This document shows positions 30,640 to 48,218 of a stretch of DNA of 64,000 bases, one piece after another. Position 1 is the stretch's first letter. Every line of letters begins with the position of its first letter. The notes beneath the pieces are model-generated. The model saw only the letters and a list, made by a program, of their open reading frames with translations, was not told the origin of the DNA and made no database searches. The stretch spans positions 1,364,001-1,428,000 of the forward strand of contig NZ_JUGR01000001.1 of assembly GCF_000800015.1 (NCBI RefSeq). Reading direction: 5' to 3'. This DNA comes from Terriglobus sp. TAA 43 (GTDB lineage Bacteria > Acidobacteriota > Terriglobia > Terriglobales > Acidobacteriaceae). The translations under genes were made by a program, and so were the position numbers.

Positions 30640-31668
30640 ATGGCAGCATCCCGGCTAAGTGACATCGCCAAACGCGCTGGCGTATCCATCGCAGCAGTTT
30701 CCATTGCACTGAACGACCGCAACACTACGCGCGTAAGTGCCGCAAAACGCGATCTGATTTATAAAATCGCCGACGAACTCTCCTATTCTCCTAACGAATT
30801 GGCAAAGGCACTGGCTGAGAAACGCAGTCGCCTTCTGGGACTCGTTGTTCCCATGCGCGATCCGATCTTCTTCAATCAATTCATCGCGCAGGCGCTTTCG
30901 GGCATCCAGTCCACGCTGATGAAGCGGGGCTATAACCTTCTGATCTTTTCGCCTTCCGGACGCCCTGGTCGCACTACCCGCGATCAGATACTGGAAAGCC
31001 GCTTTACGGATGGCCTGCTCTTCATCAACACACGTTCCTGCTCTGCACGCGACATCAACGAAACCATTCATGAGCTGAATGAAGCGAAGATTCGGTTCGC
31101 AATGATGAACAGCTACTACGGCCGCGCCCCGGTGAACTATGTGGGCGTGGATGACGCTGCAATCGGCGAAGCGGCCATTCGTTACCTTGTGCAGCGTGGC
31201 CACAAGCGCATCGCATTCCTAAGCGGTGAAAGCACATTGCCCACGCATATCCATCTGCTGCAGGGGCTGCGCAGAGCCATGATCGATTTTGGCCTGGAAT
31301 TAAAGCAGGAGCATATCGGCTGCACGCATTACGACCAAACGCAGGCGTTCAGCATTATGGACGGCTGGTTCGCGCGCAAGAAGGATCGCCCAACCGCAAT
31401 CTTTGCAGCAGACGACACACTGCTGGTGCACATCTACGACTACATGGAAGCACGCCGCCTATCCGCACCCGGCGATGTAGCCATTCTGGCTCGCGCCAAC
31501 TCCGCGAATGCGGGTGGTTTGCGACCACGTCCAACGGCATTCTTTATTCCTGTCTTCGAGATGGGACAACTCGCTGCAGACATGGTGATTGACGCTATCG
31601 AAAAGCCGGAGCGGCCACCACAGCGCGTTTTACTGCCCTTCACGTTCTCCGCCGGGAACACTACCTAG
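30640..31668 (+). CDS. LacI family transcriptional regulator
   Basis: 342 residues. N-terminal HTH: RLSDIAKRAGVSIAAVSIALND with the hinge PNELAKALAEKRSRLLGLVVP. The periplasmic-binding-protein-like core includes YVGVDDAAIGEAAIRYL, RIAFLSGE and AIFAADDTLLVHIYDYM. It precedes the MFS/FAD-oxidoreductase genes and is the likely regulator of the glycan locus up to 48 kb, where three promoters carry palindromes with a central CG typical of LacI operators. The inducing sugar is unknown. Confidence 0.92.
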   Translation: MAASRLSDIAKRAGVSIAAVSIALNDRNTTRVSAAKRDLIYKIADELSYSPNELAKALAEKRSRLLGLVVPMRDPIFFNQFIAQALSGIQSTLMKRGYNLLIFSPSGRPGRTTRDQILESRFTDGLLFINTRSCSARDINETIHELNEAKIRFAMMNSYYGRAPVNYVGVDDAAIGEAAIRYLVQRGHKRIAFLSGESTLPTHIHLLQGLRRAMIDFGLELKQEHIGCTHYDQTQAFSIMDGWFARKKDRPTAIFAADDTLLVHIYDYMEARRLSAPGDVAILARANSANAGGLRPRPTAFFIPVFEMGQLAADMVIDAIEKPERPPQRVLLPFTFSAGNTT

Positions 31669-31690
31669 CCTGACCCAAAAATAAAAGTGT

Positions 31691-31741
31691 TTGACACAGG
31701 AGGGAATGCCTTGTTAGGTTAATCGACGTTAAACGGTTAAC
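31691..31741 (+). promoter_or_regulatory. Promoter and LacI-type operator of the first MFS/FAD operon
   Basis: A perfect -35 TTGACA lies at 31691-31696; the -10 region around 31714-31719 (TTAGGT) is poor. Downstream is GTTAA-ACGG-TTAAC (31728-31741), a perfect-arm palindrome, preceded by an overlapping related half site GTTAATCG (31718-31725). The arrangement resembles the GH30 promoter at 35399-35454. Confidence 0.65.
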
Positions 31742-31746
31742 CTCTT

Positions 31747-33045
31747 ATGAGCTCCCAAACTTCGTCTGATTCGGCTTTCAGTATCCCGCCGCCCCTCACG
31801 GGCGTTGAGGTTGCTGAAAGCGGAGGAGAGACGACGTTGCACGCTGCACATGCCAGCCCACGGCGATGGCTCTATGCTGGGCTGCTATTGCTCGCATCGG
31901 TGGTGAATTACGTCGATCGGCAAACACTGTCGGTGCTCGCGGTCACGATGCAGCATGATCTGCATCTCACCGATGTGGACTATGGCCATGTTGTGCAGGC
32001 ATTCCTGCTGGCCTACATGGTGATGTACACACTCTCCGGACGTTTGGTGGATCGTTTCGGCGCACGATGGACCCAGGGCGTGTTTCTTTTGGTTTGGTCG
32101 GTCGCCGATGCATGTACAGGATTTGCGCGGGGTTTCTTCTCGCTGGCCATGAGCCGTTTCGCACTTGGCGCAGCCGAACCAGGCAATTACACCGCCTCTC
32201 TGCGCGCCTCCGGAGACTGGTTCAACGAACGCGAGCGCTCCATTGCAGTCGGTATTTACAGCATGGGCGGCACGCTGGGCGCGGCGGTCGCCGTGCCGAT
32301 TGCTGCAGGCCTCGCGACGGTCTTCGGATGGCGGTCTGCATTCTTCGTCACCGGAGCGCTTGGGGCTGTCCTGGCAGCAGTATGGATGCTGTTGTATCGC
32401 GACCCCGAAGTGCAGCATGAACGCGCAGCCTCGGTGCCTTGGCTCACTGTACTACGTCAGCCCCATATCGCAGTGCTGCTCATCACGCGCACCATGACAG
32501 ATAGCGTCTGGTACTTCTTCCTGTTCTGGTCTGTGAAGTACATGCAGGACGCACACGGACTCACATTGAAGACTGTTGGCACCACGCTTTGGATTCTCTA
32601 CGTGTCTGCCGACTTAGGCTCGCTTCTGGGTGGATTTATCTCTGGGAAACTTGTCCCACGTTTGGGCACACTGCGTGCTCGTTTTGTAGTCATGCTTCCA
32701 GTAGCTGCGTGCATGTTTGCACTTTGCACCGTGCCGCACTTGCATAGCGTCGGGGCAGCGATTGCCATACTCAGCGCATTGGCGCTATGCCATATGGCAT
32801 GGATGACAAATGCCACAGTGATGACCCTTGACCTGTTTCCGCGCTCCATGGCAACGACTGTGCAAGGCATGATTGGCTCTGCGAGCGCCGCCGGTGGGTT
32901 GATTACAGCCGCCATGATTGGCTCAAGTATTCAGACACATGGCTATGCGCCTGTGTTTTACGGGTTGTGCATGCTGCATCCGCTGGCTGCCTTGCTGTTG
33001 TGGTGGCGCATTGGATCGCGTGCAGTTGCAGGAGGACAGGGATGA
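31747..33045 (+). CDS. MFS transporter, ExuT/anion-cation symporter type
   Basis: 432 residues, about 12 membrane helices. NYVDRQTLSVLAVTMQHDLHL and the motif GRLVDRFGARW place it with hexuronate/sugar-acid symporters, as does RFALGAAEPGNYTASLRASGDWF. ATG 31747 is 5 bases after the operator and has no ribosome site. A TTG at 31837 has GGAGGAG 8 bases upstream and would start just before the first membrane helix; it may be the true start. The next gene overlaps its stop (ATGA). Imports an unknown glycan-derived sugar or uronate. Confidence 0.88.
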   Translation: MSSQTSSDSAFSIPPPLTGVEVAESGGETTLHAAHASPRRWLYAGLLLLASVVNYVDRQTLSVLAVTMQHDLHLTDVDYGHVVQAFLLAYMVMYTLSGRLVDRFGARWTQGVFLLVWSVADACTGFARGFFSLAMSRFALGAAEPGNYTASLRASGDWFNERERSIAVGIYSMGGTLGAAVAVPIAAGLATVFGWRSAFFVTGALGAVLAAVWMLLYRDPEVQHERAASVPWLTVLRQPHIAVLLITRTMTDSVWYFFLFWSVKYMQDAHGLTLKTVGTTLWILYVSADLGSLLGGFISGKLVPRLGTLRARFVVMLPVAACMFALCTVPHLHSVGAAIAILSALALCHMAWMTNATVMTLDLFPRSMATTVQGMIGSASAAGGLITAAMIGSSIQTHGYAPVFYGLCMLHPLAALLLWWRIGSRAVAGGQG

Positions 33046-35336
33046 AGCAGCAGACGGAACAATATGACGTGGTGGTGTGCGGAGGCGGTCTTGCAGGTGT
33101 ATGCGCGGCCATTGCGGCAGCGCGAGGCGGTGCCGCAACATGCCTGGTGCAGGACAGGCCGGTGCTCGGCGGCAACAGTTCTTCCGAGGTTCGCGTAACG
33201 CCGCATGGCGCTGCTGCATTTCACGCTTACGCGCGCGAAACCGGCATTCTCTCGGAACTCTTGATCGAGGAACGTGCTCAGAATCACGAAGAAATTTTCG
33301 AGAACGGCTGGACCAACTCCGTGTGGGACATGGTGCAGTACGACCTGGTGCAGCGCACGCCTAATCTGACTCTGCATTTGAACACCGCGGTGCTTGGCGT
33401 TGAGATGGAAGGGCGCACGCTAAAGGCAGTGCGCTGCCGCATTGGCAATGCGGAAGTAGACCTCACCCTGGAAGCAAAGGTCTTCATCGACTGCACAGGT
33501 GATGGCATGGTTGCAGCCGAGGCAGGTTGCGAATGGCGCATGGGCAGCGAAGGCAAAGCCGAGTTCAACGAGCCCCACGCACCTGCCGTAGCCAACGGCG
33601 ACATCATGGGAAACTCGATTCACTTCCGCGCGCGTGACATGGGGCGTCCCGTCCCTTTTAAGCGACCGGAATGGGCTATGCATTATGACGATGCGCGTTT
33701 CTTCTATGACCAGGGCCGCCTTCCGAAAGAGATCCGCGGTGGCTATTGGTGGATTGAGATCGGCGTTCCCTACGACACCATTCATCAGGCGGAAGAGATT
33801 CGTCATGAACTTACGCGGCACACTTTAGGCGTGTGGGACTGGATTAAAAATCGCGACCCAAAGACGATGAAGCTTGCGGAGAAATGGGCGCTGGATTGGA
33901 TTGGCCAGGTTCCCGGAAAACGCGAAAGCCGTCGCATCATGGGCCTCTATCTGATGAACGAATGGGATGCGATTCGTTGCACCGTTCATGAAGATGAGAT
34001 CGCCTTCGGCGGATGGTTCATTGACATCCATACACCGGGCGGGTTGTTGGCTCCTACCAGCGAACCCGCGAGTGCAGAAGGCTATTCCGAGACAAGCGAA
34101 TACGCGGCACGCTCTTATGCTGGCCCCTATGGAATTCCCCTGCGAAGCCTTGTGGCCAAGGACGTCGACAACCTGATGATGGCAGGTCGCAACGTGAGCG
34201 CTACACATTGCGCATTGTCCACCGTACGCGTAATGGCTACTACTGCATTGATGGGACAAGCTGCTGGTGTAGCCGCTGCGTTGGCTACTCAACGGAAGAC
34301 TTCGCCCGCGCACATTGCAACGGTTGAATACAAACAGGTACAGCAAATGCTTCTACGCGAGGGCTGCTTCCTGCCCAATGTGCGTAATGAAGATGCGGGC
34401 GATCTAGCTCAACGTGCCACCGTCTCTGCGTCAAGCGAAGCAAGCTTCATGGGCGTGGGTCCGGAGAGTCTTGGCGCACATGAAGGTCTTGCCTTCTGGC
34501 GTGATCAGGCAGTGCCCCTGAGAGAAGAATTGCTGCAACGCCGTGGACAGTGGGTGGCTCTTGGTGGTGAGAAGTTACAAACGTTGCGTTTCTACCTGTC
34601 GAACACAAGTGAGATCCCGCAGCGAGTCTCTGTGAAGCTGATGAAGGTGCAGCACATCTGGGACTATCGCGTGGACGATGCGATGGAAATCTGCGCAGGT
34701 GAAGTCATTCTGTTTCCAGGGCCGAAGCAATGGATTGACTGGCAAATTCCTGCAGATGCTGCGTTTCACGAAGATGGCTACATTCGCGTGGATCTGTTGC
34801 CAAACCGTCATGTTCAATGGCATGTCGCCAACGCCGTGGAGCCGGGGCACGTGTCTGCGTTTGAAATGTCACCAGGCAAGATGCGCCGCTATTCAAGCGG
34901 TGTCACGCTCTCCATGCAGGTAGAACCACCACAGAGGTCGTTCGCCGCTGCAAACGTTTTGAGCGGAGTAACGCGCCCGCATGCCACCACCAATCTGTGG
35001 CGCTCTGATCCGAAACAACCGCTTCCACAATGGCTGGAGCTGGCTTGGGCAACACCGCAAAACGTTTCGGAAGCAATCCTAACTTTCCCCGGCCATCTAC
35101 TGCGGGAATACCACGCGTATGCACCGATGTATCGCGATCCGCAGTGTGTTCGTGATTACGACATACAGATTCGCGACAACGAAAACTGGCGCACCATTGC
35201 TGAAGTTCGCGGTAACTATCAGCGAAGAAACGTAGTCACATTCGCCGAACCAATTCGCACAGATCGCATGCGCGTTGTAGTACTCGCGACGCCTGGCGAT
35301 CCTTCGGCAGCGATCTACGAAATCCGCCTGTACTAA
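33042..35336 (+). CDS. FAD-dependent oxidoreductase with C-terminal discoidin-like domain
   Basis: 764 residues. FAD site: VVVCGGGLAGVCAAIAAARGG, then the family block LVQDRPVLGGNSSSEVR. Later blocks are FIDCTGDGMVAAEAGC, QVPGKRESRRIMG and LMMAGRNVSATHCALSTVRVMAT. These define the FAD_oxidored family common in glycan loci. The last roughly 170 residues (GVTRPHATTNLWRSD to the final YEIRLY) look like an F5/8-type (discoidin) beta-sandwich, often carbohydrate-binding. There is no signal peptide, so it probably works in the cytoplasm. The ATG overlaps the MFS stop and has GGAGGA upstream. The substrate is unknown, presumably a sugar imported by the MFS partner. Confidence 0.85.
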   Translation: MKQQTEQYDVVVCGGGLAGVCAAIAAARGGAATCLVQDRPVLGGNSSSEVRVTPHGAAAFHAYARETGILSELLIEERAQNHEEIFENGWTNSVWDMVQYDLVQRTPNLTLHLNTAVLGVEMEGRTLKAVRCRIGNAEVDLTLEAKVFIDCTGDGMVAAEAGCEWRMGSEGKAEFNEPHAPAVANGDIMGNSIHFRARDMGRPVPFKRPEWAMHYDDARFFYDQGRLPKEIRGGYWWIEIGVPYDTIHQAEEIRHELTRHTLGVWDWIKNRDPKTMKLAEKWALDWIGQVPGKRESRRIMGLYLMNEWDAIRCTVHEDEIAFGGWFIDIHTPGGLLAPTSEPASAEGYSETSEYAARSYAGPYGIPLRSLVAKDVDNLMMAGRNVSATHCALSTVRVMATTALMGQAAGVAAALATQRKTSPAHIATVEYKQVQQMLLREGCFLPNVRNEDAGDLAQRATVSASSEASFMGVGPESLGAHEGLAFWRDQAVPLREELLQRRGQWVALGGEKLQTLRFYLSNTSEIPQRVSVKLMKVQHIWDYRVDDAMEICAGEVILFPGPKQWIDWQIPADAAFHEDGYIRVDLLPNRHVQWHVANAVEPGHVSAFEMSPGKMRRYSSGVTLSMQVEPPQRSFAAANVLSGVTRPHATTNLWRSDPKQPLPQWLELAWATPQNVSEAILTFPGHLLREYHAYAPMYRDPQCVRDYDIQIRDNENWRTIAEVRGNYQRRNVVTFAEPIRTDRMRVVVLATPGDPSAAIYEIRLY

Positions 35337-35398
35337 CAGGTATTCGCGCCCGATACGTAACCTTTTCCGCGAAAACAAAACGGTCCCGAGAAAAGGTC

Positions 35399-35454
35399 TT
35401 GACAATGCATTCACAGTTTTTCTAATCTCGCCGCCGTCTAGTTAATCGATTAAC
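35399..35454 (+). promoter_or_regulatory. Promoter and LacI-type operator of the GH30 gene
   Basis: TTGACA (35399-35404), 16 bases, then TCTAAT (35421-35426) form a good sigma-70-like promoter. The perfect 14-bp palindrome GTTAATCGATTAAC (35441-35454) sits where it would block transcription start, and ends one base before the GH30 ATG. Confidence 0.78.
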
Positions 35455-35455
35455 C

Positions 35456-36952
35456 ATGTCACTCCAAAGTTCCTTGATCACATCTCGAATCGTGCGACAG
35501 CAATGCCGATCCACTGCGATACTCCTGCTGTTTGCAGCAATTCCCGTTTGCTCTGTTGCGCAGAATCAAGGTGACTACACACTTCGATATGACCAGCCGC
35601 ATCAAGTGATTCGCGGACTCGGATTTGAAATCCAAAGTGATTCGATCGCGTCTGGCAATGCGGGAATGCCCGAAGAAGTAATTGCTGTTCCGCATGATCT
35701 GACACCTGAGGAGAAGGTGCGCTTCGCCAAAGAGATGTTGCATGGCTTCCGCTATGCGCGACTGGCGATGGGCCTTTATTTACGCGGTCTGGATGCGGAA
35801 CAAAAGCACATTGTGGAGCGCTATCCGGGACAGATGGCCGATCTGAAGCAGATGCAGGACCTGTCCGGCATCCAGGGATTCGATGTGGAGTACTGGTCTC
35901 CCGCGCCCTATTGGAAGCAGAACAAAACATACTATGGCGGACCCATTGCCGGGCATGACGCACAGTTTGTGAATCAGTTCAGTGATGCGATGGTGCAGGA
36001 TCTTCGCTATCTGCAATCGCATGGGTTACACGTTGCACAGTGGGGTCTTCAGAATGAACCCGTGGTGGGTCATCTGAAGTCAACGCCCGGCGCCGCTGCT
36101 GGCACAGATAAAGGGCAGTCGTACTCTACCTGCTTCTATTCGCCTGAGGACTATCACACGGTCCTTGCGCCCACCGCGCCGAAGGTCCATGCGCTGTTCC
36201 CTGCTGTAGAGATTCATGCCCCAAGCTGGGATGGCCCCGCAGGCCTGTATGCCGCTGAGATTCGTAAAGATCCCGCGCTGCTGAAGCAGATTGATGCATG
36301 GACATGGCATCAGATTGGCCACAATTCAAATGACCAGATCACGCTGCGCGAGAAGTACCTGGCAGGTGCCGCAGGTAAAGCGGTTTACCAAAATGAATTC
36401 GAGTACCAGCCTTGGGACAAGAACATGCCAGTTGATGGCTATTTCATGAACACGGGGCAAGCGTTGATGAACTGGATGACGTTTGAGGATTCGCCAGTCT
36501 GGTACTGGCTTCATGCGCTGAAGCCTGTCTCGAATTTAGAAGCCACTGGATATGCGTTGGGATTCTGGCGCCCCGAAGGTGAGCTGAAAAACAACATTGC
36601 ACCCCAGATCCAACCAGGTCATTGGGATTACAACCCGCACAGCTATAACGCGATTGCGGGATTTTTGAAGTATCTACCGTGGGATTCCACTCGGCTTGCC
36701 GTTGACGAGAGCGAAGTTCGTAATGACCAGCGCATTCTCGTCTGGCGCTCGAAGGACGGCCGATTGGGCGTCGCTCTTTCGAATAGAGGCACCGCGCCGT
36801 TCCAGTTCCATCTGCATGGAGTGCGTTCCGCTCAGCTTAGCGGACACCGCTACACCGTGCAGTCACGTGACGTTTCTCTTTCCAACAAGAAAGTATCTGC
36901 GGACCTCGTAATCACGGTGCCACCGCAGAGCTTCGAGTTCTGGATCGGGTAA
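35456..36952 (+). CDS. Exported GH30-like glycoside hydrolase
   Basis: 498 residues with a signal peptide around 17-35 (STAILLLFAAIPVCSVAQ). Clan GH-A features: GLGFEIQSDS near the N-terminus, WGLQNEPVVGH (acid/base Glu), and AVYQNEFEYQPWD (probable nucleophile Glu). A C-terminal beta domain (RNDQRILVWRSKDGRLGVALSNRG) fits GH30. Members cleave beta-linked glucose, xylose, fucose or glucuronoxylan; the specificity is not clear. ATG 35456 directly follows the operator without a ribosome site, so initiation may be unusual. Confidence 0.8.
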   Translation: MSLQSSLITSRIVRQQCRSTAILLLFAAIPVCSVAQNQGDYTLRYDQPHQVIRGLGFEIQSDSIASGNAGMPEEVIAVPHDLTPEEKVRFAKEMLHGFRYARLAMGLYLRGLDAEQKHIVERYPGQMADLKQMQDLSGIQGFDVEYWSPAPYWKQNKTYYGGPIAGHDAQFVNQFSDAMVQDLRYLQSHGLHVAQWGLQNEPVVGHLKSTPGAAAGTDKGQSYSTCFYSPEDYHTVLAPTAPKVHALFPAVEIHAPSWDGPAGLYAAEIRKDPALLKQIDAWTWHQIGHNSNDQITLREKYLAGAAGKAVYQNEFEYQPWDKNMPVDGYFMNTGQALMNWMTFEDSPVWYWLHALKPVSNLEATGYALGFWRPEGELKNNIAPQIQPGHWDYNPHSYNAIAGFLKYLPWDSTRLAVDESEVRNDQRILVWRSKDGRLGVALSNRGTAPFQFHLHGVRSAQLSGHRYTVQSRDVSLSNKKVSADLVITVPPQSFEFWIG

Positions 36953-36996: not shown

Positions 36997-39900
36997 ATGT
37001 TGAAGTCCTTGAGGCAAACGCAACTGGCACGAACAGCAGTGCTGGCAACGCCCATTTTCCTGTGCGCGCTTCCGCTCTATGCGCAACAGGGAACGGGCAA
37101 CATTTCTGGAACAGTACATGATTCCAGCGGTGCGGTGGTTCCGAACGCCACCGTAGACATTGAAAACGTTGACCGTAACGATGTCATCCATCTGAAGACG
37201 AATGACGCGGGCTTCTATAGTTCTCCGCCATTGAATCCAGGCAGCAACTACCGCGTGACAATCACTCGGGATGGCTTTGGAAAGTCAGTCATAAGCCATG
37301 TGATCGTAACCGTAGGCCAACGCGTGGATGAAGACGCGACTCTGACCGTTGGTGGCGTAAACGATACGGTCGTCGTCGAAGCCACACAGGCAGCCGCGCT
37401 CGACACGACATCCGCGACGCTGGGTGCCGTGATCGGTGAAAAATCCATCGAAGAATTGCCGCTGAATGGTCGTAACACCATCGCTCTCACGACGCTGACG
37501 CCGGGTGTTCGTATTAACACCACGGTGGCACAGTCCGGATTTGCGAACCGTGGTACAAATCTGTCGGCTATCTCGATCAACGGTTCGCCCACTGGATCGA
37601 ACTCTTACATCCTTGATGGTCAGAGCAATCTTTCCACTACGACCGGCGAAATCGCAGTTAATCCAACGGTAGATGCCATCCAGGAATTTAAAGTGCAGAG
37701 CGGTGTCTTCTCTGCACAGTATGGTTTCACGCTGGGTGGTGTCGTCAACCTGGTCAGCCGTAGCGGTACGAATAGCATTCACGGCTCAGCCTATGAGTTT
37801 CTGCGAAATGACGTGTTCAACGCACGCAACTATTTCGCCCGCACCGGTGTGGTCGCAAAGCCAGTACTGCGTTACAACCAGTTCGGCGGAGCCATGGGCG
37901 CCCCAATTATCAGGGACAAGGCGTACATCTTCGGCAACTTTGAAACGTACCAGTTCAAGCAGGCATCGCCCCAATTTCTTAGCGTGCCTACTGCCGCGCA
38001 ACGAGCGGGTGACTTCAGCCAACTGATCGACGCCAACGGCAACTTTATTCCGCTTTATAACCCTTACACGACGACCACCACCACCACAGGTGGCAACACG
38101 GTTTATACGCGTCAGCGTTATGCCAATAACCAGGTAACGAATCTTGACCCGGTCGCTGTTTCTTACCAGAACAACTTCTACCCATTACCGAATAACGTCC
38201 CAGCGACGGTTGCACAGCAGCGCACGAACACGAACAACTACCTGTTTAACGCACAGGGCCTGTCGCACATGTACAACGCATTGGGCCGTTTCGACTATCA
38301 CCTCGGTGAGAAGGACACGCTTTTTGCGCGCTTTGCTTACTATCAGAACTACACTAACGGCGGTACGGGCGGCGGCACATACTATCCCAATCCAATCGTA
38401 GCCAACCGCTATGACACATACACCGCGGAAGAACTGCTCGTTGGAGACACGCACGTCTTCTCTTCCTCGCTGATCAATGACCTTCGCCTCTCCATTGAGC
38501 GCCAAGAGTTCCCTTTCCAGGCAGCCAGCGCAGGACAGAACTGGCCACAGAAGTTGGGTCTTCCCTCAAACGTTCCCAACTTTGCCATTCCTACAGTGAG
38601 CAACGGACTGCCGGGTTCCAATCAGACCATCGGCTTTCGTGCTTACACACTTCCGGAAGTTACAGATACCGTCAGCAAAGTCATCCAGCGGCATGCGCTT
38701 AGCTTCGGTTTCGACTGGCGTTATAACGCTGGTGCGAACCTGCAACGCAATACACCGTCCGGAACCTTCAGCTTCGCAGCCAGTCTTACCCAAGATCCAT
38801 CCGGCACTGCTGCTGTTGCCGGAACAACAAATACCGGAAATACTTACGCGACGTTTCTTGCAGGCGCCGTCAGTTCAGCAGGCATCACCACAAATCTTGG
38901 CGAGTTAGACCGCGCGTTCAGTGTTTCTGGTTTCATTCAGGATGATTGGTCCGTATCTGATCGTCTGACATTGAACCTTGGCCTGCGCTATGACTTCCAG
39001 CAGCAGCCCTTTGAACAGAACAACGGCTACAGCAATTTCAATCCAACACTCACCTCTGGTGGCTATACCGGCATCATGCAGTATGCAAATACGCCAGGTG
39101 TAGGTCGCAACTTCGTTCCAGAGAGCTATCGTGATTTTGGTCCTCGCTTTGGCTTCGCCTATCAGCTCACGGGCGATGGCAAGACTGTGTTGCGTGGCGG
39201 TTTCGGCATTTACTATCCGCTGTTCTTTAACTCCATCTACACCGGCCAAACGAATGGCTTCTCATCCACAAGCACCAACTACAGCGCAACAACCAACCAG
39301 GCGGCCTTCCAGTTTAAGAATGGATTCCCTTATGACCCACTTCAACCTGGAGGCGCATCGTATGGTCCGCTTGGTTTCCTCGGCCAGGCCGTTGGCTATC
39401 AAACTCCGGGCGCGTGGAAGTCGCCTCAGTCACAGCAATACACATTGAGCGTGCAGCGGCAGATTCCGTACGATGTCGTATTACAGGCAACGTATGTTGG
39501 CAATCACGGCGTTCATCTTCCAGCGGGTGGTTGGAATATCAATTCGTTGAATCCTAGCTACTTCTCTCTGGGTAAGACATACCTGCAAACTCAGGTCGCC
39601 AATCCATACTCCGGTAAATTTGCGGGTTCACTCGGTGCAGCAACGGTGTCACGACAGACTTTGCTCAACCCCTTCCCCTACTACTCGAACATCAGTACAT
39701 ACAACGCGCATGTGGGCAACCTGCACGCGGACTATCTGGAACTGTCTGCACAGCGGCAAGCTAAGAATGGCCTGACCGTTCTCTTCGGATACACCATGGG
39801 CAAACTGCTCACGGATAGTGTCAATTCACCACTGGCATATCTGAATGGCTTGGCATCGAATAATGGCTATCAGAATCCCTACAACCGCGCTGCCGAATAC

Positions 39901-40527
39901 TCTCTGGACCCGTCGGACGTTTCGCAGCGTGCCACAATCAGCGCCCTCTACAATCTGCCTTTCGGCAAAGGACAACATTTCGATCTTCATAGTGGCTTGC
40001 TCAACCGCGTAGTTGGCGGATTCCAACTCAACCTGATCGGCGTTTTCCAGACAGGTACTCCGCTCACCATTACGGGCGCAAACTCACAAGGCACTGCAAC
40101 CCGTCCAAACTATGTTCCGGGTGTGAGCGTGGTGAATAAGTCTCAGAACATCAATGCATGGTTCAACACGTTGGCCTTCCAGAATCCGGATGACTACACC
40201 TTCGGCAACGTTCCGCGTACCCTGCCTCATGTTCGTGGACCGGGAACCCAGAACTTCGATCTCTCAATCTTCAAAACGACGGAGATCTATGGCCGCTTCA
40301 AGCTGCAACTGCGAGCCGAAGCATTTAACTTCCTGAACCATCCGAACTTTGGTATGCCAGGAACAGGATTCGGCGCTTCCACTAATCCTGTAGTGAACGG
40401 CAACGGTGTCAGTGCCGGTTGCCCTGCAGCAGGGGCGGGTGGCTGCAATACGAGCTCTTCCTTTGGTGTGATCAGTTCGGCTGCGGATGGACGTTCGCTA
40501 CAGCTTGCAGGCAAGATCATCTTCTAA
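36997..40527 (+). CDS. TonB-dependent receptor with carboxypeptidase-regulatory domain (Oar-like)
   Basis: 1176 residues. The signal peptide ends at LYAQQ. Residues about 30-115 are a carboxypeptidase-regulatory-like beta-sandwich (ISGTVHDSSGAVVPNATVDI). A plug domain follows (IEELPLNGRNTIALTTLTPG, AISINGSPTGSNSYILDG), then a long outer-membrane beta-barrel ending in LQLAGKIIF with the terminal Phe signal. It imports glycan fragments across the outer membrane. No SusD partner is adjacent, as is usual in Acidobacteriota. It starts 44 bases after GH30, with GGGGTGAAGG near the ATG, and is followed by a strong terminator, so GH30 and the receptor form a transcription unit. Confidence 0.93.
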   Translation: MLKSLRQTQLARTAVLATPIFLCALPLYAQQGTGNISGTVHDSSGAVVPNATVDIENVDRNDVIHLKTNDAGFYSSPPLNPGSNYRVTITRDGFGKSVISHVIVTVGQRVDEDATLTVGGVNDTVVVEATQAAALDTTSATLGAVIGEKSIEELPLNGRNTIALTTLTPGVRINTTVAQSGFANRGTNLSAISINGSPTGSNSYILDGQSNLSTTTGEIAVNPTVDAIQEFKVQSGVFSAQYGFTLGGVVNLVSRSGTNSIHGSAYEFLRNDVFNARNYFARTGVVAKPVLRYNQFGGAMGAPIIRDKAYIFGNFETYQFKQASPQFLSVPTAAQRAGDFSQLIDANGNFIPLYNPYTTTTTTTGGNTVYTRQRYANNQVTNLDPVAVSYQNNFYPLPNNVPATVAQQRTNTNNYLFNAQGLSHMYNALGRFDYHLGEKDTLFARFAYYQNYTNGGTGGGTYYPNPIVANRYDTYTAEELLVGDTHVFSSSLINDLRLSIERQEFPFQAASAGQNWPQKLGLPSNVPNFAIPTVSNGLPGSNQTIGFRAYTLPEVTDTVSKVIQRHALSFGFDWRYNAGANLQRNTPSGTFSFAASLTQDPSGTAAVAGTTNTGNTYATFLAGAVSSAGITTNLGELDRAFSVSGFIQDDWSVSDRLTLNLGLRYDFQQQPFEQNNGYSNFNPTLTSGGYTGIMQYANTPGVGRNFVPESYRDFGPRFGFAYQLTGDGKTVLRGGFGIYYPLFFNSIYTGQTNGFSSTSTNYSATTNQAAFQFKNGFPYDPLQPGGASYGPLGFLGQAVGYQTPGAWKSPQSQQYTLSVQRQIPYDVVLQATYVGNHGVHLPAGGWNINSLNPSYFSLGKTYLQTQVANPYSGKFAGSLGAATVSRQTLLNPFPYYSNISTYNAHVGNLHADYLELSAQRQAKNGLTVLFGYTMGKLLTDSVNSPLAYLNGLASNNGYQNPYNRAAEYSLDPSDVSQRATISALYNLPFGKGQHFDLHSGLLNRVVGGFQLNLIGVFQTGTPLTITGANSQGTATRPNYVPGVSVVNKSQNINAWFNTLAFQNPDDYTFGNVPRTLPHVRGPGTQNFDLSIFKTTEIYGRFKLQLRAEAFNFLNHPNFGMPGTGFGASTNPVVNGNGVSAGCPAAGAGGCNTSSSFGVISSAADGRSLQLAGKIIF

Positions 40528-40553: not shown

Positions 40554-40590
40554 GCAGGATGGAGAATCCCTTCTCCGTCCTGCTTTTCTT
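40554..40590 (+). terminator. Terminator after the TonB-dependent receptor
   Basis: GCAGGATGGAGAA (40554-40566) and TTCTCCGTCCTGC (40571-40583) pair along 13 bp with one G-T pair and a 4-base loop, followed by TTTTCTT. Confidence 0.88.
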
Positions 40591-40619
40591 TACGGAAGAA
40601 CACACAGGAGACTCAACAG

Positions 40620-42323
40620 ATGAACTTCGTTCGTACCACCGCTGCAGCACTTGCACTGATGACATTTGCCAGCACAGCCTTCGCCGCGGAACGAATCTCA
40701 CTGGATGGCAGCGGCTGGACTTTCAAGACAACACTGGATAATCCGGTTCCCGTAGAAGTTCCACATTGCTGGACCGGTACAGAACGGTGGCGTCATTACA
40801 TTGGTTCGGCGCTTTATCAGCGCGATTTTGACGCGCCATCACTCAAACCCGGACAGGTCGTTCGTCTTCACTTTGACGCCGTGTACGACGTGGCAACGGT
40901 ATGGGTCAATGGCAAGCGCCTGGGCACACACGAAGGTGGTTACACAGCTTTTGAATACGATGTGACCTCGCTTCTGAAGCCGGGCAAGAACCGCATTCTG
41001 GTAGAGACGAACAATATTCCAACGATCAGTTCGATTCCTGCGTTGGCAACTGGCAATCCTTCCTCCGTGAACAATGACGGCCGCATCACGGTTGTGGGTT
41101 GGCTGCCGTATGGTGGTATTGTGCGGCCGGTGAGCTTGCTGGTGACAGATGCAGTTTATCTTCGCAACATGAAGGTGGATGCGAAGCCTGATCTAAAGAC
41201 CGGCGATGCCACCATCACTGTTCACGCATGGGCACACAACGGCGGCAACACCGATCACACTACCGACATTACGGGGACTGTGGCCGGACTGGCCGTATCG
41301 TTCCCTCATAAACGAATTGGTGCCAATGCCGACGAAGAGCTGACCTGGACCGGAAAGTTATCGCACGCCCATCTCTGGAGTGTCGCCGATCCTTTCCTGT
41401 ACGACGCACACTTGCAGACGACCGGAGACGCGCTTGATGCGAAGGTTGGCGTGCGTGACATTCGCGTTGTTGGCACAGAGCTGCAGCTCAACGGCAAGAC
41501 GGTTCATCTATATGGAGCGAATCGCGTCGGTGAAGATCCACTCGATGGATTGATTGAGTCTGACGCCACGATTGAACGTGACATGAGCGATATGCTGGCG
41601 CTCAACATGCGCATGATGCGCATTGCACATTATCCGCAGCCACCAGCGCTGCTGGATTTTGCAGACAAGCACGGGATGTTGATCATTCCTGAAGCCGGTA
41701 ATTGGAACATGAGTTCGTGGCAGATGGCTGATCCTGATATTCGCCAGCGTTTCGAGAAGCAGCAGCAAGAGATGATCGAGCAGGAATGGAACCATCCATC
41801 CGTCATTGCGTGGAGCGTGGGTAACGAGTACGAATCCTACACTGACGAAGGAAAGGCATGGACGCGTGATATGCGCGCGTTTTCATTGAAGCTGGATCCC
41901 ACGCGCTTGATCACGTTTGCCGATCGCTATACAGGCGATCCTGCAGTGAAGAAAGGCTCTGATGATGCGAGCCAGTACAGCGATTTCGTCTCAATCAACG
42001 TCTATGGCAATTACGCAAAGCGCTTCGACTACGCACACCAGCTTTATCCTGATAAGCCAATCTTTGTAACTGAATTTGGCAAGATGGGTGAACCGGGAAT
42101 GCACGATCCAAAACGCACTGCAGACATCACCGATGCAGTGAATGCGATGAAAGCGCGTCCGTGGATGGTTGGCGGCTCCTTGTGGACGTGGGCGGATTAT
42201 CGCTCATTCATCGGCGGCACACCGGACAACGGGATTCGTAGTTGGGGTGTGGTCGACTTCATGCGCCAGAAACGCGATAGCTACCCGGTGGTACAGCAGT
42301 TGTTTAAGACGGAACTTCCGTAG
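40620..42323 (+). CDS. Exported GH2 family glycoside hydrolase (beta-glucuronidase/beta-galactosidase-like)
   Basis: 567 residues. Signal peptide MNFVRTTAAALALMTFASTAFA. Jelly-roll domain: VPHCWTGTERW, YQRDFDAP, VWVNGKRLGTHEGGYTAF. TIM barrel: LYGANRVGEDPL, MRMMRIAHYPQPPALLDFADKHG, WSVGNEYES (acid/base Glu) and PIFVTEFGKMG (nucleophile Glu). The short form resembles beta-glucuronidases. It may act on fragments released by GH30. ATG 40620 has CAGGAG about 9 bases upstream. It lies after a terminator so it may have its own promoter. The 3' end overlaps the converging MFS gene by 20 bases. Confidence 0.9.
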   Translation: MNFVRTTAAALALMTFASTAFAAERISLDGSGWTFKTTLDNPVPVEVPHCWTGTERWRHYIGSALYQRDFDAPSLKPGQVVRLHFDAVYDVATVWVNGKRLGTHEGGYTAFEYDVTSLLKPGKNRILVETNNIPTISSIPALATGNPSSVNNDGRITVVGWLPYGGIVRPVSLLVTDAVYLRNMKVDAKPDLKTGDATITVHAWAHNGGNTDHTTDITGTVAGLAVSFPHKRIGANADEELTWTGKLSHAHLWSVADPFLYDAHLQTTGDALDAKVGVRDIRVVGTELQLNGKTVHLYGANRVGEDPLDGLIESDATIERDMSDMLALNMRMMRIAHYPQPPALLDFADKHGMLIIPEAGNWNMSSWQMADPDIRQRFEKQQQEMIEQEWNHPSVIAWSVGNEYESYTDEGKAWTRDMRAFSLKLDPTRLITFADRYTGDPAVKKGSDDASQYSDFVSINVYGNYAKRFDYAHQLYPDKPIFVTEFGKMGEPGMHDPKRTADITDAVNAMKARPWMVGGSLWTWADYRSFIGGTPDNGIRSWGVVDFMRQKRDSYPVVQQLFKTELP

Positions 42324-43554
42324 CCACTTCAAGCTGCTGTGGCAGGTGACCTTCTTCCCTGCTGGTATACACCGGCCACAGCAGCGTAATCGCAATGGGA
42401 TGCAATACAGCCATTAAGCAAAACACCGGCGTGTAGCCGCCGTGCATTACGAAATAACCAACGGCTTCACTGGAGAGCATCCCACCAAAGCCGCTGCCCA
42501 TTGCAACCAAACCTGCGGCCTTGCCCAACTGCTGCTGCGAATATAGATCCACCAACACGGCGGTCAGCGTAGCAAGCCACCCCATATGTGCGAATGCAAT
42601 CAGTGCAGCGATCAAGATGGATGAAAGTGTTCCGGGAACGAATGCTGCAAGCGGACTCAAAGGAACAATACAGGCTGCTGCAAGCATGATGCGGCGATAC
42701 GCAAGTCCCGGGCGCAACCCGGAGCGAATCATGCGTCCTGAGATCAGGCCGCCCAGCAACGTGCCAAGTCCACCACCTGCATAAACAATCCATCCCACTT
42801 TTGCTACCGAACCCAGCGGAAGGTGTCGTGCGCTGAGTAGATACTTCGGAAACCAGAACAGCAGGAAGTACCACACCGGATCAGTGATGCTGCGCGCGAT
42901 AAGAAGCTTCCATGTTGCGGAGCGCCGTAGTACGGCCAGGGCGCTGGCCTTTGCAGGCTGCTGCGATGCAGCACTTTCGTTGCTGCGATAGATCCAGAAC
43001 CACACAGGAACGAGAAGTAAACCCGCAACACCGTCCAAGAGAAAGATCGAGCGCCATGGAAGGTGTGTTGTAACCGCTGTGATGATGGGTAGCGCCACAA
43101 TCGCACCTACTGTCGCACCCATCGTGTAAATGGAAATCATCAGCGGACGCCGCTTCTCATCGAAGGTTTCGCCGACAGCCTTCGGCGCAGCGACCCAAAG
43201 GCCGGGCTCGCCAAGTCCAAGGCAAAAACGGGCAAGACCGAGGAGCCAGGCTGTATGCACGAATGCGGTTGCAGCTTCCGCTAGCGACCACCAGCCCACG
43301 AAAAGCGCCATGGAACGACGCGTTCCAAGCCGATCGGAGATGAATCCTGAGATGCCATAGGCAATTGCAGAGGCGAACAGAAAAAGGCTAACTATGTGCG
43401 CATAGCCCTGGTCATCCAGATTCAAAAGCGCCTGCATGCGCGGCGCTACAACGGAAAGACTTTGCCGGTCAAAATAGTTCACCAGCGCAATCAAAAAGAG
43501 CCACACCACCAATTGCCACTGCCGCGCGCTCATCCGGCTGTTCTGCTTCTCCAC
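42304..43554 (-). CDS. MFS transporter, ExuT-like (second copy of module)
   Basis: 416 residues, about 12 membrane helices. NYFDRQSLSVVAPRMQALLNL and GFISDRLGTRRSM are the ACS-family motifs, and RFCLGLGEPGLWVAAPKAVGETF resembles the 31747 transporter at the same position. It starts 21 bases after the stop of the second FAD-oxidoreductase, so the two are an operon in reversed order compared with the 31747-35336 module. Confidence 0.88.
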   Translation of the reverse strand: MEKQNSRMSARQWQLVVWLFLIALVNYFDRQSLSVVAPRMQALLNLDDQGYAHIVSLFLFASAIAYGISGFISDRLGTRRSMALFVGWWSLAEAATAFVHTAWLLGLARFCLGLGEPGLWVAAPKAVGETFDEKRRPLMISIYTMGATVGAIVALPIITAVTTHLPWRSIFLLDGVAGLLLVPVWFWIYRSNESAASQQPAKASALAVLRRSATWKLLIARSITDPVWYFLLFWFPKYLLSARHLPLGSVAKVGWIVYAGGGLGTLLGGLISGRMIRSGLRPGLAYRRIMLAAACIVPLSPLAAFVPGTLSSILIAALIAFAHMGWLATLTAVLVDLYSQQQLGKAAGLVAMGSGFGGMLSSEAVGYFVMHGGYTPVFCLMAVLHPIAITLLWPVYTSREEGHLPQQLEVATEVPS

Positions 43555-43575
43555 AGCGCTCTCCTGTTTTTACGA

Positions 43576-45879
43576 TCAGTAGCAACGAACTTCAAAGATC
43601 GCGGGGATTGCATCACCATGACCCACAATACTTATGGCGAGCTCTCCAGTCGTGATTGGCTCTGCAAGATTTAGCGTGTAGCGCGTCTGATGGTTCTCTT
43701 TCACATGCGCCAAAACTCTATCACCCGCACGAACTTCAAATGCCGTAACGCATGCTGGCATAACGCGTTCTGGATGGCCCATCAACACGGATTCCATTGG
43801 ATGATCAAAGTCCGTGTCGAAGCCAAGCACAACCTCACGGATGGACTGAGGTTCATCCCACGTTAGTTTCAACGTAGGCTGTGAATCATCCTTAGCAGGC
43901 AGCCATGCATTCGCGCCGCTCCACGGGCGTGCAACTCCGTTGCGAACATTCGCCGCAGTGAAAAGATCAAGCGCTGGCTCAAACTGCATGGCAAGGTTGC
44001 GTGCTTGTGGTCTGCGCGTGGGGAGCCAGAACGCGAAGGTGTCTACCCCTGAACCTTCCGGCGGCGACTGTACCAAGCTTTTCGCAACTGCTTTATTCAT
44101 CTTCTGAGCTAACGTCAGAATTCCCGTTACTTGCTCGGTGCTCAAGGCAACAGACACATCTTCGTTGGTATGCAGAATGGCAAACGCGTGAGCCTCGTTG
44201 GACATGCTTGCTGAAAACGCAATCACTGCCTCCTGCTCGCCTTCCTTGAGTGTGACGGCCAGTGCGTCTACCCTCACGTCAGGAGTGGTGTTGCCGTCGC
44301 GACTGCTGATCCACAACTCACAACGGAGTTCGGTAGTTGCCTTTGCTCGCGCAGCCAATGTAAACCGTGGCACAGCACCAGCAAGCAGCGGCACTAAAAG
44401 AGCCATGGGCTGTGACAGTGTCTCCCATTCACCAGAGGGCTCAAGCTCAGCGAGTTTCAGCGTGGAACTGCTCGTGATAATTGCACTCTGTGTCTTGTCC
44501 TGAGCATCCTGCAAACGCACACCGGGAATGTGTTGACCGTGTGCGAGCAGGACTTGCTGCAGTCGAACCATGTGCGCTGGTTGTGTCAGATCACGCGGCA
44601 GAAGCCGTTCGCTTTTGCAGACCACGGCAGCCATGCCCACTGCTTGTGCACTGTGAGCGCACGTGGCCATCACTCGCGTAGAACCAAATGCGATATGGGA
44701 AGCCGAGAGAATGCGACCCGCAAGAAACAGGTTGGGTACATTGCGGCTGTACATGGTGCGATACGGAATGGTGTAAACACCTTTGCTATGCCACTGCGTG
44801 CAACCCGGCTGTGAGCTATAGACACCATCCGGCGGATGCAGATCGACAGCCCATCCGCCGAAGCTAACAGCATCGTCGTGATGGCGTTGTTCAATCACGT
44901 CCTGCTGCATCAGCATGTAGTCGCCTTCAAAACGACGACTTTCACGCTTGCCCGGAATTGTTCCCATCCATTCGAGCGTCAGCGTTTCTGCTTCTGGAAA
45001 TTCACCGGAGTTCTTGATGTAATTCCAGACTCCGTACGCGACCTTCCACAGTTCGTACTTGATCTCTTCCGTTTCGTACACCGTGTCACGGGCTCCGCCG
45101 TATTCAAGCCACCACAAGCGGCATCCTGAATCCGTTACACGCAGTTCGCGAAAGCGCGGTATCGCGGTAATATCCTTCAACGCGAATGCAGGAGGCACAT
45201 ACTTCACGGGCCTGCCGGTATCGCGTGTGTAGAAGTAAAGCGAATGCCCCAACAGTGAGTGATCCTCTGTTTCAGGAGCCAATAGCTCACCGAACTCCGC
45301 GCGCGATTCCGCCCCCACACGGAAGGCTGCGCCGGCAAGGAATCCCAGGATGCCGTCGCCAGACGCGTCGCAGAAGAGCGGCGCTGTAATGTTGTAGCGA
45401 ATCTGATTCTGACTGCAGAATGCACTCACACTTGTAATGCGGCCGTCTCCGGCTTCTGTCTCTGCGGAATCCACTGCGGTGTTCAGCAAGAGTGTGATGT
45501 TGGCTTCACGTAGCGTCCACTCGAGCAGAATGGAATCAAAAACAATGGCATTCCCTTCCGGGTTGCGCCACATGTTTTCCACCAGCAACTCATCGATCAC
45601 GCCGCCTTCACGTGCCCACCGATTGTTGTTGCCCATGTGAGATGTTGCTCCCAATACCCAAAGCCGCACTTCGCTCGACGCATTCCCACCAAGCACCGGC
45701 CGGTCTTGCACCAGAACGGTCCGTACGCCCTGCCGCGCAGCGGTAATGGCGGCGCAGACGCCAGAAAGTCCTCCGCCAACCACTATCAGATCAGCGTCCA
45801 TGGTCTGCTGGCGCAAAGTCCTCGGTCCAGCCGTCGTACTAGCCCCAGTCGCGCCGATTGTGTCTTTCAGTTCATGCAT
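43576..45879 (-). CDS. FAD-dependent oxidoreductase with C-terminal discoidin-like domain (second copy of module)
   Basis: 767 residues from ATG 45879 (the frame is open to a TTG at 45924 that lies in the promoter region; ATG 45801 directly before the FAD loop is another option). FAD site LIVVGGGLSGVCAAITAARQG, then LVQDRPVLGGNASSEVRLW, FCDASGDGILGFLAGA, TIPGKRESRRFEGDY and LAGRILSASHIAFGSTRVMAT. The tail (GANAWLPAKDDSQPTLKLTW to FEVRCY) is discoidin-like. It has the same architecture as the 33042 protein but is clearly diverged. No signal peptide. It faces the GH31 gene across a shared regulatory region. Confidence 0.85.
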   Translation of the reverse strand: MHELKDTIGATGASTTAGPRTLRQQTMDADLIVVGGGLSGVCAAITAARQGVRTVLVQDRPVLGGNASSEVRLWVLGATSHMGNNNRWAREGGVIDELLVENMWRNPEGNAIVFDSILLEWTLREANITLLLNTAVDSAETEAGDGRITSVSAFCSQNQIRYNITAPLFCDASGDGILGFLAGAAFRVGAESRAEFGELLAPETEDHSLLGHSLYFYTRDTGRPVKYVPPAFALKDITAIPRFRELRVTDSGCRLWWLEYGGARDTVYETEEIKYELWKVAYGVWNYIKNSGEFPEAETLTLEWMGTIPGKRESRRFEGDYMLMQQDVIEQRHHDDAVSFGGWAVDLHPPDGVYSSQPGCTQWHSKGVYTIPYRTMYSRNVPNLFLAGRILSASHIAFGSTRVMATCAHSAQAVGMAAVVCKSERLLPRDLTQPAHMVRLQQVLLAHGQHIPGVRLQDAQDKTQSAIITSSSTLKLAELEPSGEWETLSQPMALLVPLLAGAVPRFTLAARAKATTELRCELWISSRDGNTTPDVRVDALAVTLKEGEQEAVIAFSASMSNEAHAFAILHTNEDVSVALSTEQVTGILTLAQKMNKAVAKSLVQSPPEGSGVDTFAFWLPTRRPQARNLAMQFEPALDLFTAANVRNGVARPWSGANAWLPAKDDSQPTLKLTWDEPQSIREVVLGFDTDFDHPMESVLMGHPERVMPACVTAFEVRAGDRVLAHVKENHQTRYTLNLAEPITTGELAISIVGHGDAIPAIFEVRCY

Positions 45880-45918
45880 ACCGTCATAATCCCGTCTGTT
45901 CGAGGAGGAAAAAGAGCT

Positions 45919-45960
45919 TGTCAAGCTAACGTCGAAGAGAGTACATGTTAAACGTTAAAC
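45919..45960. promoter_or_regulatory. Promoter region and LacI-type operator between second FAD gene and GH31 gene
   Basis: GTTAAACGTTAAAC (45947-45960) matches the GTTAA-N4-TTAAC pattern with one arm mismatch. A TTGTCA at 45919-45924 and TACATG at 45942-45947 could be -35 and -10 for GH31; the reverse complement of the first is TTGACA, a possible -35 for the divergent FAD gene. Confidence 0.55.
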
Positions 45961-46019
45961 CTGTAAAGAACCGGGCGGATTTTGATATCGTTTCATGGCC
46001 GCCCGTTGGAGGATTGAAC

Positions 46020-48218
46020 TTGCTTCCTTTTCGTTCCTCGACAGCGATTATGGCTGTCGCCGTCCTGCTTCCTTTCAGCGCCATTGCTCAGAGCAATATC
46101 CAGCTTTCTTCCTCCGGGATTGTCTTTCATGCGGAGCGTACGGGCGCGCGCTTTTCGATTGACAGCAATGGCAATAAAACGGTCGCGGCTTCGCCTGCTG
46201 CCGGTATCTTGATCAACGGGAGTCCGTTGACTCTCACAGATAGCTGCACGGCATCTCCCTGCACTCTGCACGGCAAGACGTCCGCCGGCGGCCTGGCGAC
46301 TCTCTCGATCCGTATTGAGCCTCACCACGTCGCTATGACCGTGCATCCAGCGCACGAGGGAGCGGAAGTGCGATTCATCACAGCTGGCGCATCGCCTGCG
46401 TATGGATTGGCAGATCACGCAGCCGAGCAAAAGCAATTCTCCACGCTTGAGAACAAACAATTCAATACGGATGTAACGGGGTTCAAAGACGATATTTTCC
46501 TATCTGGCCAGGGCCTTACGCGGCTCGTCAGCAACTTCATCATTTATCCGAAGCAGGGATTTGCGGAAGTCTTGATCGATCCGTACCGCAAAATTGTGCA
46601 CACCAGCGGCAGTGAGATTGTTCAGGGTGTCGAACATGCGCATGGCGATGTGCGCATGCATTATTTTTTCGGTGATCCGCATGCAATTTATGGAGCGTAC
46701 CTAGCCGCAAGAAACGCCGCGGGATATCGGGTTATGGTGCCGAAGTATGCCGCTTTCGGTGTGGGTTGGGAGGCATTTGGCGCACTTGGCTGGGACACCA
46801 ATCAGAAGACGGATACAGAGAGCATTGATCATTACCTGAAGGACGGCTTCCCTCTTCGCTGGATTGTGGTCGGTTCCGGCTTCTGGCCCTCGCAACCCGA
46901 ATCCATGCATGAAACCACGTCTTTCGGCTACTGGGATAAAGAAAAGTATCCCGACCCGCGCGGCATGTTCCAGCACTTCAAGGAAGAAGGACTCGTGTCG
47001 ATGCTTGGTCTTCGCATCACCTTCATCACGACGGGCCCCTACTCTGATGAAGGCGTGAAGCATGGCTATTTTCTGAAAGATGCAAGCGGAAAAGCGGAAT
47101 CCTTCACCGGCGGCTGGCCCAAGATGCCGTATTACCTTCTGGACGCACACAATCCTGCTGCTTTGGATTGGTACATGGGTCTGGTCAAGAAGTGGCAGGA
47201 CTATGGTGTGAGCGGATGGAAAGAGGACTTCTATGGCTATGGAAAGTATCCGCTACGTGATGACAAGGTAGATCCAACCAATGACCGACTGATGGCGCAA
47301 AATCAACTCATTATTGAACGCAATGGTTATCTCTCTTCGAACGGTGATCTGCACCGCATCAACGACTTCAACTACAACCAGGATCAAGATCGCGGTCCGG
47401 TGAACGCGCTCGCTCTGGCCTATGCAGGATTTCCGCTGGTGTATCCAGACATTGTTGGCGGTACGTTCGGTGAAAGCCACTTCAACACACAGCGCACGCC
47501 GCAGATGGAGACCTACATGATGCGCAACGCCATGTGGGCCTCGCTGCATAGCAGCATGGGTATGGGCGAACCACCGTGGAGCTTCCGTCCTGGAGTCGCT
47601 AACGTGATGCGCAAAGCGGCACAACTTCATGACCGCATCTCACCCTACTTGTTCCAGTACGGACGACGCTTTGCCGCTGACGGCTATCCGTGGACCATGA
47701 CGCCACTGCCCATCGCCTACCCGAATGACAGCGCCGTCTACGCCCACGAGAATGCAACAGATCATCGCTATGAGTGGCTGATCGGCGAAGCATTATTGGC
47801 GGCCCCCTTGTACGGCAATGACTACGCCACTGCGACTACACGAGACATCTATCTTCCCGCGGGTGAATGGATGGACTTCGAAACAGGAACTCTTTATAAC
47901 GGCAATCAGCTACTACGCGCCTTTGCGTTACCAGTGGATAAGATTCCTCTATTTGTTGGAGGCACTGGGATCACGCTGGAAAAGCAAAACAAGGATATCT
48001 TCGCCTGCATCTATCCTGTCGCTCGCAAGGGTTCTACTACGTTGTCACTGCCAGACGATCCACGTCCGATCCGTGTAACCGTTGCCGCCCCGCTGAAGGG
48101 CGCACGCAACATCGTAGTGAAGGATCGTTCGGGGAAAGAAGTTGCAATTAGCAAGGCGGGATTCGGGTACAGTTTCCATCCTGTAGCCGGCGAGTCCTAT
48201 ACGGTTACCACTCGCTGA
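46020..48218 (+). CDS. Exported GH31 family glycoside hydrolase (alpha-glucosidase/alpha-xylosidase)
   Basis: 732 residues. Start TTG 46020 is chosen because GGAGG lies 7 bases upstream and it begins a signal peptide (STAIMAVAVLLPFSAIAQS); the ATG at 45945 is inside the operator. An N-terminal beta domain is followed by the GH31 barrel: FGVGWEAFGALGWDT, PLRWIVVGSGFWPSQ, GVSGWKEDFYGYG with the nucleophile Asp, FPLVYPDIVGG, then RISPYLFQYGRRFAADG and the C-terminal sheet YLPAGEWMDFETG. It removes alpha-linked glucose or xylose. Last gene of the glycan locus on this strand. Confidence 0.9.
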   Translation: MLPFRSSTAIMAVAVLLPFSAIAQSNIQLSSSGIVFHAERTGARFSIDSNGNKTVAASPAAGILINGSPLTLTDSCTASPCTLHGKTSAGGLATLSIRIEPHHVAMTVHPAHEGAEVRFITAGASPAYGLADHAAEQKQFSTLENKQFNTDVTGFKDDIFLSGQGLTRLVSNFIIYPKQGFAEVLIDPYRKIVHTSGSEIVQGVEHAHGDVRMHYFFGDPHAIYGAYLAARNAAGYRVMVPKYAAFGVGWEAFGALGWDTNQKTDTESIDHYLKDGFPLRWIVVGSGFWPSQPESMHETTSFGYWDKEKYPDPRGMFQHFKEEGLVSMLGLRITFITTGPYSDEGVKHGYFLKDASGKAESFTGGWPKMPYYLLDAHNPAALDWYMGLVKKWQDYGVSGWKEDFYGYGKYPLRDDKVDPTNDRLMAQNQLIIERNGYLSSNGDLHRINDFNYNQDQDRGPVNALALAYAGFPLVYPDIVGGTFGESHFNTQRTPQMETYMMRNAMWASLHSSMGMGEPPWSFRPGVANVMRKAAQLHDRISPYLFQYGRRFAADGYPWTMTPLPIAYPNDSAVYAHENATDHRYEWLIGEALLAAPLYGNDYATATTRDIYLPAGEWMDFETGTLYNGNQLLRAFALPVDKIPLFVGGTGITLEKQNKDIFACIYPVARKGSTTLSLPDDPRPIRVTVAAPLKGARNIVVKDRSGKEVAISKAGFGYSFHPVAGESYTVTTR

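Follow-up and report, generated by a model that had tools for sequence, protein, structure and literature searches.

In local regulons of the LacI family, the gene for the regulator adjoins the genes that it controls. In Bacteroidota, polysaccharide utilization loci (PULs) of the SusC/SusD type are usually under hybrid two-component or sigma/anti-sigma control. The locus analyzed here has points of likeness with both. It occupies positions 30640 to 48218 of a 64,000-nucleotide stretch of the Terriglobus sp. TAA 43 genome (the window, to which coordinates refer unless another genome or locus is named). It comprises a LacI-family regulator gene, two pairs of MFS transporter and PF12831 flavoprotein genes (MFS1-FAD1 and FAD2-MFS2), genes for GH30-like, GH2, and GH31 glycosidases, and a gene for a TonB-type outer-membrane receptor (OMP). 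Judged from its sequence, the locus appears to be a real and well-supported LacI-family local regulon of an ordinary, known kind, in which three palindromes very probably serve as binding sites for the adjacent LacI repressor.

Even palindromes with a central CG are typical of the LacI family: Ravcheev et al. 2014 (PMC4052901) give them for 1173 of 1303 transcription factors, and the preliminary description of this DNA had likewise described LacI operators as palindromes with a central CG. The 14-bp motif GTTAAnCGnTTAAC has the same even form with a central CG. The local sugar regulons in Ravcheev et al. further resemble the present one in combining transporter and glycosidase targets and in having sites mostly shortly before start codons. 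This likeness is to the general description, and the paper's main text never uses the word Acidobacteria. A full-text literature search found no paper describing this regulon.

The regulator itself (30640-31668, plus strand, 342 aa) carries the DNA-binding domain model PF00356 (46.7 bits; cut-off 27) and the periplasmic-binding-protein domains PF13377 (87.4 bits; cut-off 26.5) and PF00532, so that the LacI gene proposed earlier is real. By solved structures and NCBIfam models, it lies nearest to the RbsR/CcpA/PurR branch, the best sequence matches among solved structures being the ribose operon repressor (9ny7, 6.5e-28) and CcpA (1rzr, 2.5e-27). It departs from that branch in its target genes and in its scores, which fall far under the cut-off for every one of the 17 NCBIfam models matched. 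These include the RbsR equivalogs NF047341 (the best, 130.7 against 382 bits) and NF007743 (118.4 against 531).

With Bacteroidota PULs, the locus shares a TonB-type receptor beside secreted glycosidases. It differs in its LacI control, in its OMP_b-brl_4 receptor, and in the lack of a SusD-like lipoprotein beside that receptor, as SusD_RagB (PF07980), the only SusD model searched genome-wide, has no match in the whole genome. The earlier characterization of the locus as SusD-less thus holds for SusD_RagB, but does not set this locus apart. Since OMP_b-brl_4 is numerous (78 matches, among which several are fragments of a single gene) and SusD_RagB is missing genome-wide, a SusD-free receptor is the rule in this genome.

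Probable operators at the locus and in related genomes

All three palindromes were found where the preliminary description had placed them, with the arms and mismatch it gave. Operator 1 (31728-31741, GTTAAACGGTTAAC) has two perfect arms, operator 2 (35441-35454, GTTAATCGATTAAC) is a perfect 14-bp palindrome, and operator 3 (45947-45960, GTTAAACGTTAAAC) carries one mismatch. The exact pattern GTTAA-N4-TTAAC occurs twice in the window against 0.007 expected, and GTTAANCGNTTAAC at up to one mismatch three times against 0.037 expected. Neither count was reached in any of 300 dinucleotide shuffles of the window. At two mismatches, there was no enrichment in the window (13 sites against 9.4 expected, with 17 of 100 shuffles equally high). 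Hence, the signal is confined to near-perfect sites, and two-mismatch sites in the window were rejected as extra operators.

The genome search advised earlier gave a similarly local picture. In the 4,947,033 bases of the genome (about 4.95 Mb in 7 contigs), the only exact matches are operators 1 and 2, and three of the seven central-CG sites at up to one mismatch are the reported ones (binomial P ~1e-6). Because the motif was derived from the very sites being tested, it is other genomes that provide the independent test.

Orthologues of the regulator are present in 11 of 19 genomes of the genus (E up to 1e-60) and in 12 of 150 relatives (E up to 1e-80), the own genome being counted in both. 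A search of further genome contigs gave nine LacI loci. Three of these (L056, L058, L060) were taken to be the same as those of genomes G009, G001, and G008; the others belong to Edaphobacter (L053, L054), Bryocella (L055), Granulicella (L057, L059), and an Acidobacteriaceae metagenome-assembled genome (L061). The test set comprised 15 loci with LacI orthologues 44-80% identical to that of the window (260,298 bases), and excluded G005 and G013, whose LacI proteins are 98-99% identical. It contains 29 sites at up to one mismatch, five of them exact, spread over 12 of the 15 loci. Among 1,260 half-site-permuted palindromes, its own included, the motif ranked first; the next reached 9 sites and the mean was 0.30. 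Fifty block shuffles of the 15 loci gave a mean of 0.28 sites and a maximum of 2. The loci are not all independent, as G001, G002, and G008 are mutually near relatives.

The distribution across the genus agrees with this result. All eight exact sites in the 19 genomes stand at a LacI locus. Near-exact sites number 50 in the 11 LacI-positive genomes against 4 in the 8 LacI-negative ones, compared with 36 against 17 for the reversed-pattern control. Of the 11 LacI-positive genomes, 8 have a FAD2 orthologue (64-100% identical) and 5 a GH30 orthologue, with at least one of the two in all but G007; neither is found in any of the 8 LacI-negative genomes. All 18 aligned LacI orthologues retain the recognition-helix stretch VSxAA(V/A)S.

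Gene order varies between these genomes. In G004, one module is formed by GH30-OMP and MFS1-FAD1 together with a GH20 gene. In G018, G009, G001, G002, and Bryocella L055, the other module is found, consisting of GH2, FAD2-MFS2, and OMP2, followed by GH31 wherever the available stretch is long enough. In these six, a site lies close to the start of every unit, in some cases with two mismatches, and in the lineage of the window both modules stand under the single motif. Operator 1 is kept in G005, G013, and, with one mismatch, G004, and stands before FAD1 in L057; operator 2 is kept in G005, G013, and G004, with one mismatch in L057. The sites therefore accompany the target genes through rearrangements, within the genus and into other genera, and the operator is conserved before orthologous targets of the same unit types. 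A weaker case is L061, which has one site without a recognized target and a GH2 site at two mismatches.

Promoter geometry and alternative explanations

Promoter geometry was read from 37 hand-listed rows of hand-picked sites (those of L061 excluded), taking as -35-like any hexamer within one mismatch of TTGACA. Its position relative to the operator is fixed at four unit types. In all nine FAD2 rows, 1 bp separates the end of the hexamer from the operator, and before GH2 this gap is 16 bp in 5 of 7 rows. Before GH30/OMP, TTGACA stands 32-36 bp ahead in 5 of 5 rows, and before MFS1 the gap is 31 bp in 2 of 3, in the window and in Granulicella L057, with the hexamer absent in G004. In the window, the two TTGACA hexamers noted earlier upstream of operators 1 and 2 were recovered as candidate -35 elements of MFS1-FAD1 (31691-31696, plus strand, 31 bp ahead) and GH30-OMP (35399-35404, plus strand, 36 bp ahead). 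These operator positions favor repression by occlusion, start sites being inferred.

It is highly likely, in our assessment, that a dimer of the adjacent LacI binds the palindromes and represses MFS1-FAD1, GH30-OMP (with or without GH2), FAD2-MFS2, and perhaps GH31 by occupying their core promoters. Release of the protein by a glycan-derived sugar would then induce the units together. Binding, repression rather than activation, and induction by sugar are proposed here by analogy with the LacI family.

Operator 3 differs from the role first given to it, as it had been tied to GH31. It is flanked by TTTACA (45962-45967) and TACTCT (45938-45943, read by eye), both on the minus strand and candidate -35 and -10 elements of FAD2-MFS2. 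Lying within this spacer, operator 3 would primarily serve the divergent FAD2-MFS2 unit and be shared with GH31 at most. The proposed joint control of MFS1-FAD1, GH30-OMP, and FAD2-MFS2 is supported, and GH31 control by operator 3 is a possible addition, compatible with the best explanation, that we judge slightly less likely than not. It is the sole near-exact site between FAD2 and GH31, and TTGTCA lies on the GH31 strand 23 bp before it. In addition, GH31 follows OMP2, which has its own sites, in five other genomes, making it plausible that GH31 was once controlled in the same way. On the other hand, operator 3 is placed exactly as in FAD2 promoters elsewhere, with the 1-bp gap of all nine rows. 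The consensus scan found no GH31 promoter either, though the other sites were equally negative.

Several observations weigh against the proposed regulon as a whole. The TTGACA-like hexamer is missing before the sites of GDSL (four rows), GH20, GH2, and MFS1 genes (one row each), as well as in four of five OMP2-GH31 rows, the fifth having TTCACA 45 bp before the site. Other gaps fall outside the four classes, among them 8 bp for SASA genes, 52 bp for a gene of 929 aa, and 23 bp for GH31 in the window. A strict sigma-70 consensus scan returned no promoter at any of the three window sites, which implies weak -10 boxes or ones of a different type. Three loci of the test set (G007, G011, G038) have no near-exact site; those of G011 and G038 lie on short contigs, and all three proteins retain the recognition-helix stretch. 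About half of the 50 near-exact sites (25, counted by hand) fall away from LacI loci, many of them probably by chance.

G007 is the clearest discordant case. Its LacI (G007:C1:2929488-2930510) is 70% identical and has the same recognition-helix stretch, yet FAD2 and GH30 are missing, and no site at up to two mismatches was found in the 35 kb around the gene. Of the two near-exact sites in this genome, one falls within an open reading frame (ORF), and the other lies 172 bp upstream of a gene for a TonB-type receptor 29% identical to that of the window.

Such persistence of the regulator without its targets, together with the seven LacI-family genes in the Terriglobus genome, any other of which could share the motif, might suggest that the operators belong to a regulator whose gene lies elsewhere, either of the LacI family or dimeric in some other way, the adjacent LacI regulating something else. 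This we consider improbable, for near-exact sites cluster around orthologues of the adjacent LacI at the 12 loci and in several genera, and FAD2 and GH30 are missing from all eight genus genomes that lack the orthologue. Slightly less probable still is an activating or dual role of the protein at some promoters. In the main text of PMC4052901, FruR/Cra combines repression and activation in one LacI-family protein. The class distances argue for repression, placing the sites within the -35/-10 spacer (FAD2), at about the -10 position (GH2), or near the expected start (GH30/OMP and MFS1), with start sites inferred. Finally, a chance origin of the palindromes, or conservation merely by close kinship, can be dismissed: the unenriched two-mismatch pattern and the near relatedness of G001, G002, and G008 would allow it, but the window shuffles and both 15-locus controls reject chance, and in distant genera the flanks, positions, and downstream genes of the sites differ.

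Encoded functions and candidate substrates

Under the LacI-regulon explanation, the domain content would define a route from glycan to cytoplasm. Glycan pieces would enter through the receptor (36997-40527, plus strand, CarboxypepD_reg and OMP_b-brl_4 domains) and would be trimmed outside the inner membrane by the GH30, GH2, and GH31 enzymes. Each MFS porter would then hand a product to a cytoplasmic FAD enzyme. Signal-peptide-like starts, read by eye, are present in GH2, GH31, GH30, and the receptor, and not in FAD1 or FAD2.

The GH30 label given earlier is likely, on modest profile matches, for the protein encoded at 35456-36952 (plus strand). No Pfam family scored above its cut-off, and the single-sequence match to the PDB was weak (E 0.024). 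A five-sequence profile matched Xyn30A (4.2e-5) and AcXbh30A (4.8e-5), which from their names we take to be GH30 enzymes. N200-E201 and N313-E314 are invariant in all five sequences, making E201 (motif NEP) and E314 (motif NEFEY) the candidate catalytic glutamates. The structure model (pLDDT 46.9) was too poor for a fold search.

GH2, assigned by Pfam (plus strand, 40617-42323 with a probable start; mechanical ORF from 40419), has beta-galactosidase, beta-glucuronidase, and beta-galacturonidase as structural relatives, which are not separated. GH31, assigned by domain search (plus strand, 46020-48218), likely starts at TTG 46020; the mechanical ORF runs from 45945, and similarity to G013 starts at its residue 26. 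It is remote from all its matches, among them alpha-galactosidase, alpha-glucosidase, and MYORG, and reaches 83.7 against a cut-off of 606 for the alpha-xylosidase model. Naming a substrate from the relatives of GH2 or GH31 was therefore rejected, as these matches are unspecific.

The least explained part of the locus is the duplicated pair of MFS and PF12831 genes. MFS1 (31747-33045, PF07690) and FAD1 (32967-35336, likely start ATG 33039), on the plus strand, have their counterparts in MFS2 (42304-43554) and FAD2 (43576-45924), on the minus strand. The two pairs (31747-35336 and 42304-45924) are paralogous, at ~38% identity for the transporters and ~33-38% for the flavoproteins, as if the pair had been duplicated as a unit. 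The best NCBIfam match of MFS1 is the D-galactonate transporter subfamily, at 201.5 bits against a cut-off of 395. Sequence and fold searches with the FAD proteins returned general flavoprotein relatives only. For FAD2 (model pLDDT 67.2), the 50 Foldseek matches listed are of this kind, with TM scores of 0.18-0.25 by query length.

A speculative and rather unlikely extension is that the regulon serves an unrecognized oxidative glycan catabolism. An imported sugar or oligosaccharide would first be oxidized by a cytoplasmic PF12831 flavoprotein instead of being handled by the usual kinase or isomerase, and the oxidized product or the sugar would act as inducer. The MFS-FAD pair would have been duplicated and specialized, and two glycan modules would have come under one repressor. 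The locus links these poorly understood flavoproteins, along with the MFS proteins paired with them, to a defined glycosidase set, and growth tests on candidate glycans could show what they oxidize.

Possible wider regulon and minor observations

Further sites at up to one mismatch widen the set of candidate members. They mark the start of SASA-type esterase genes in G001, G002, and G008 (the last assigned from 90% identity) and precede a GH20 gene in G004, GH43 and GH16 genes in G002, and a GH16 gene in Granulicella L059. Other genomes also have sites before GDSL genes. The SASA, GH20, GH43, and GH16 genes are candidate regulon members and hint at acetylated glycans, with none singled out. 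Because sites before GH16, GH20, GH43, SASA, and GDSL genes fit several glycans, no substrate is named here. The regulon and its operator, common to several genera of soil Acidobacteriaceae, are open to testing.

Within the Terriglobus genome, four near-exact sites remain beyond the three operators, and two of these (L034, L036) fall within long ORFs. The other two are only candidates for membership. At L033 (positions 2510-2523; C1:2269809), GTTAATCGTTTGAC ends 2 bp upstream of an ORF of 501 aa, next to a carboxylesterase gene. The same 14-mer is found in G005 and G013. Pfam, NCBIfam, and PDB searches with the 501-aa protein gave no match, and its interpretation as a GH30 paralogue was rejected, similarity being absent. 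At L035 (2502-2515; C2:76901), GTTGAACGATTAAC lies upstream of an ORF for an ILVD/EDD dehydratase, ending 24 bp before the mechanical start, and is found identically in G005; this site is possibly a distant regulon member.

Two weaker sites were seen in other genomes. In G011, a two-mismatch site, likewise a candidate, lies upstream of the gene preceding GH30. In G009, a paralogue 34% identical to FAD2 has GTCAAACGCTTGAC, whose two mismatches are symmetric, 27 bp upstream of the mechanical start of its ORF (L070, 3434-3447).

No operator of its own was found for GH2 in the window. The intergenic region that separates the receptor gene from GH2 contains a 13-bp hairpin with the T-rich tail TTTTCTTT (40554-40583, plus strand), which is conserved in G005 and, in changed form, in G013. 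This candidate attenuator may reduce GH2 expression inside the operon.

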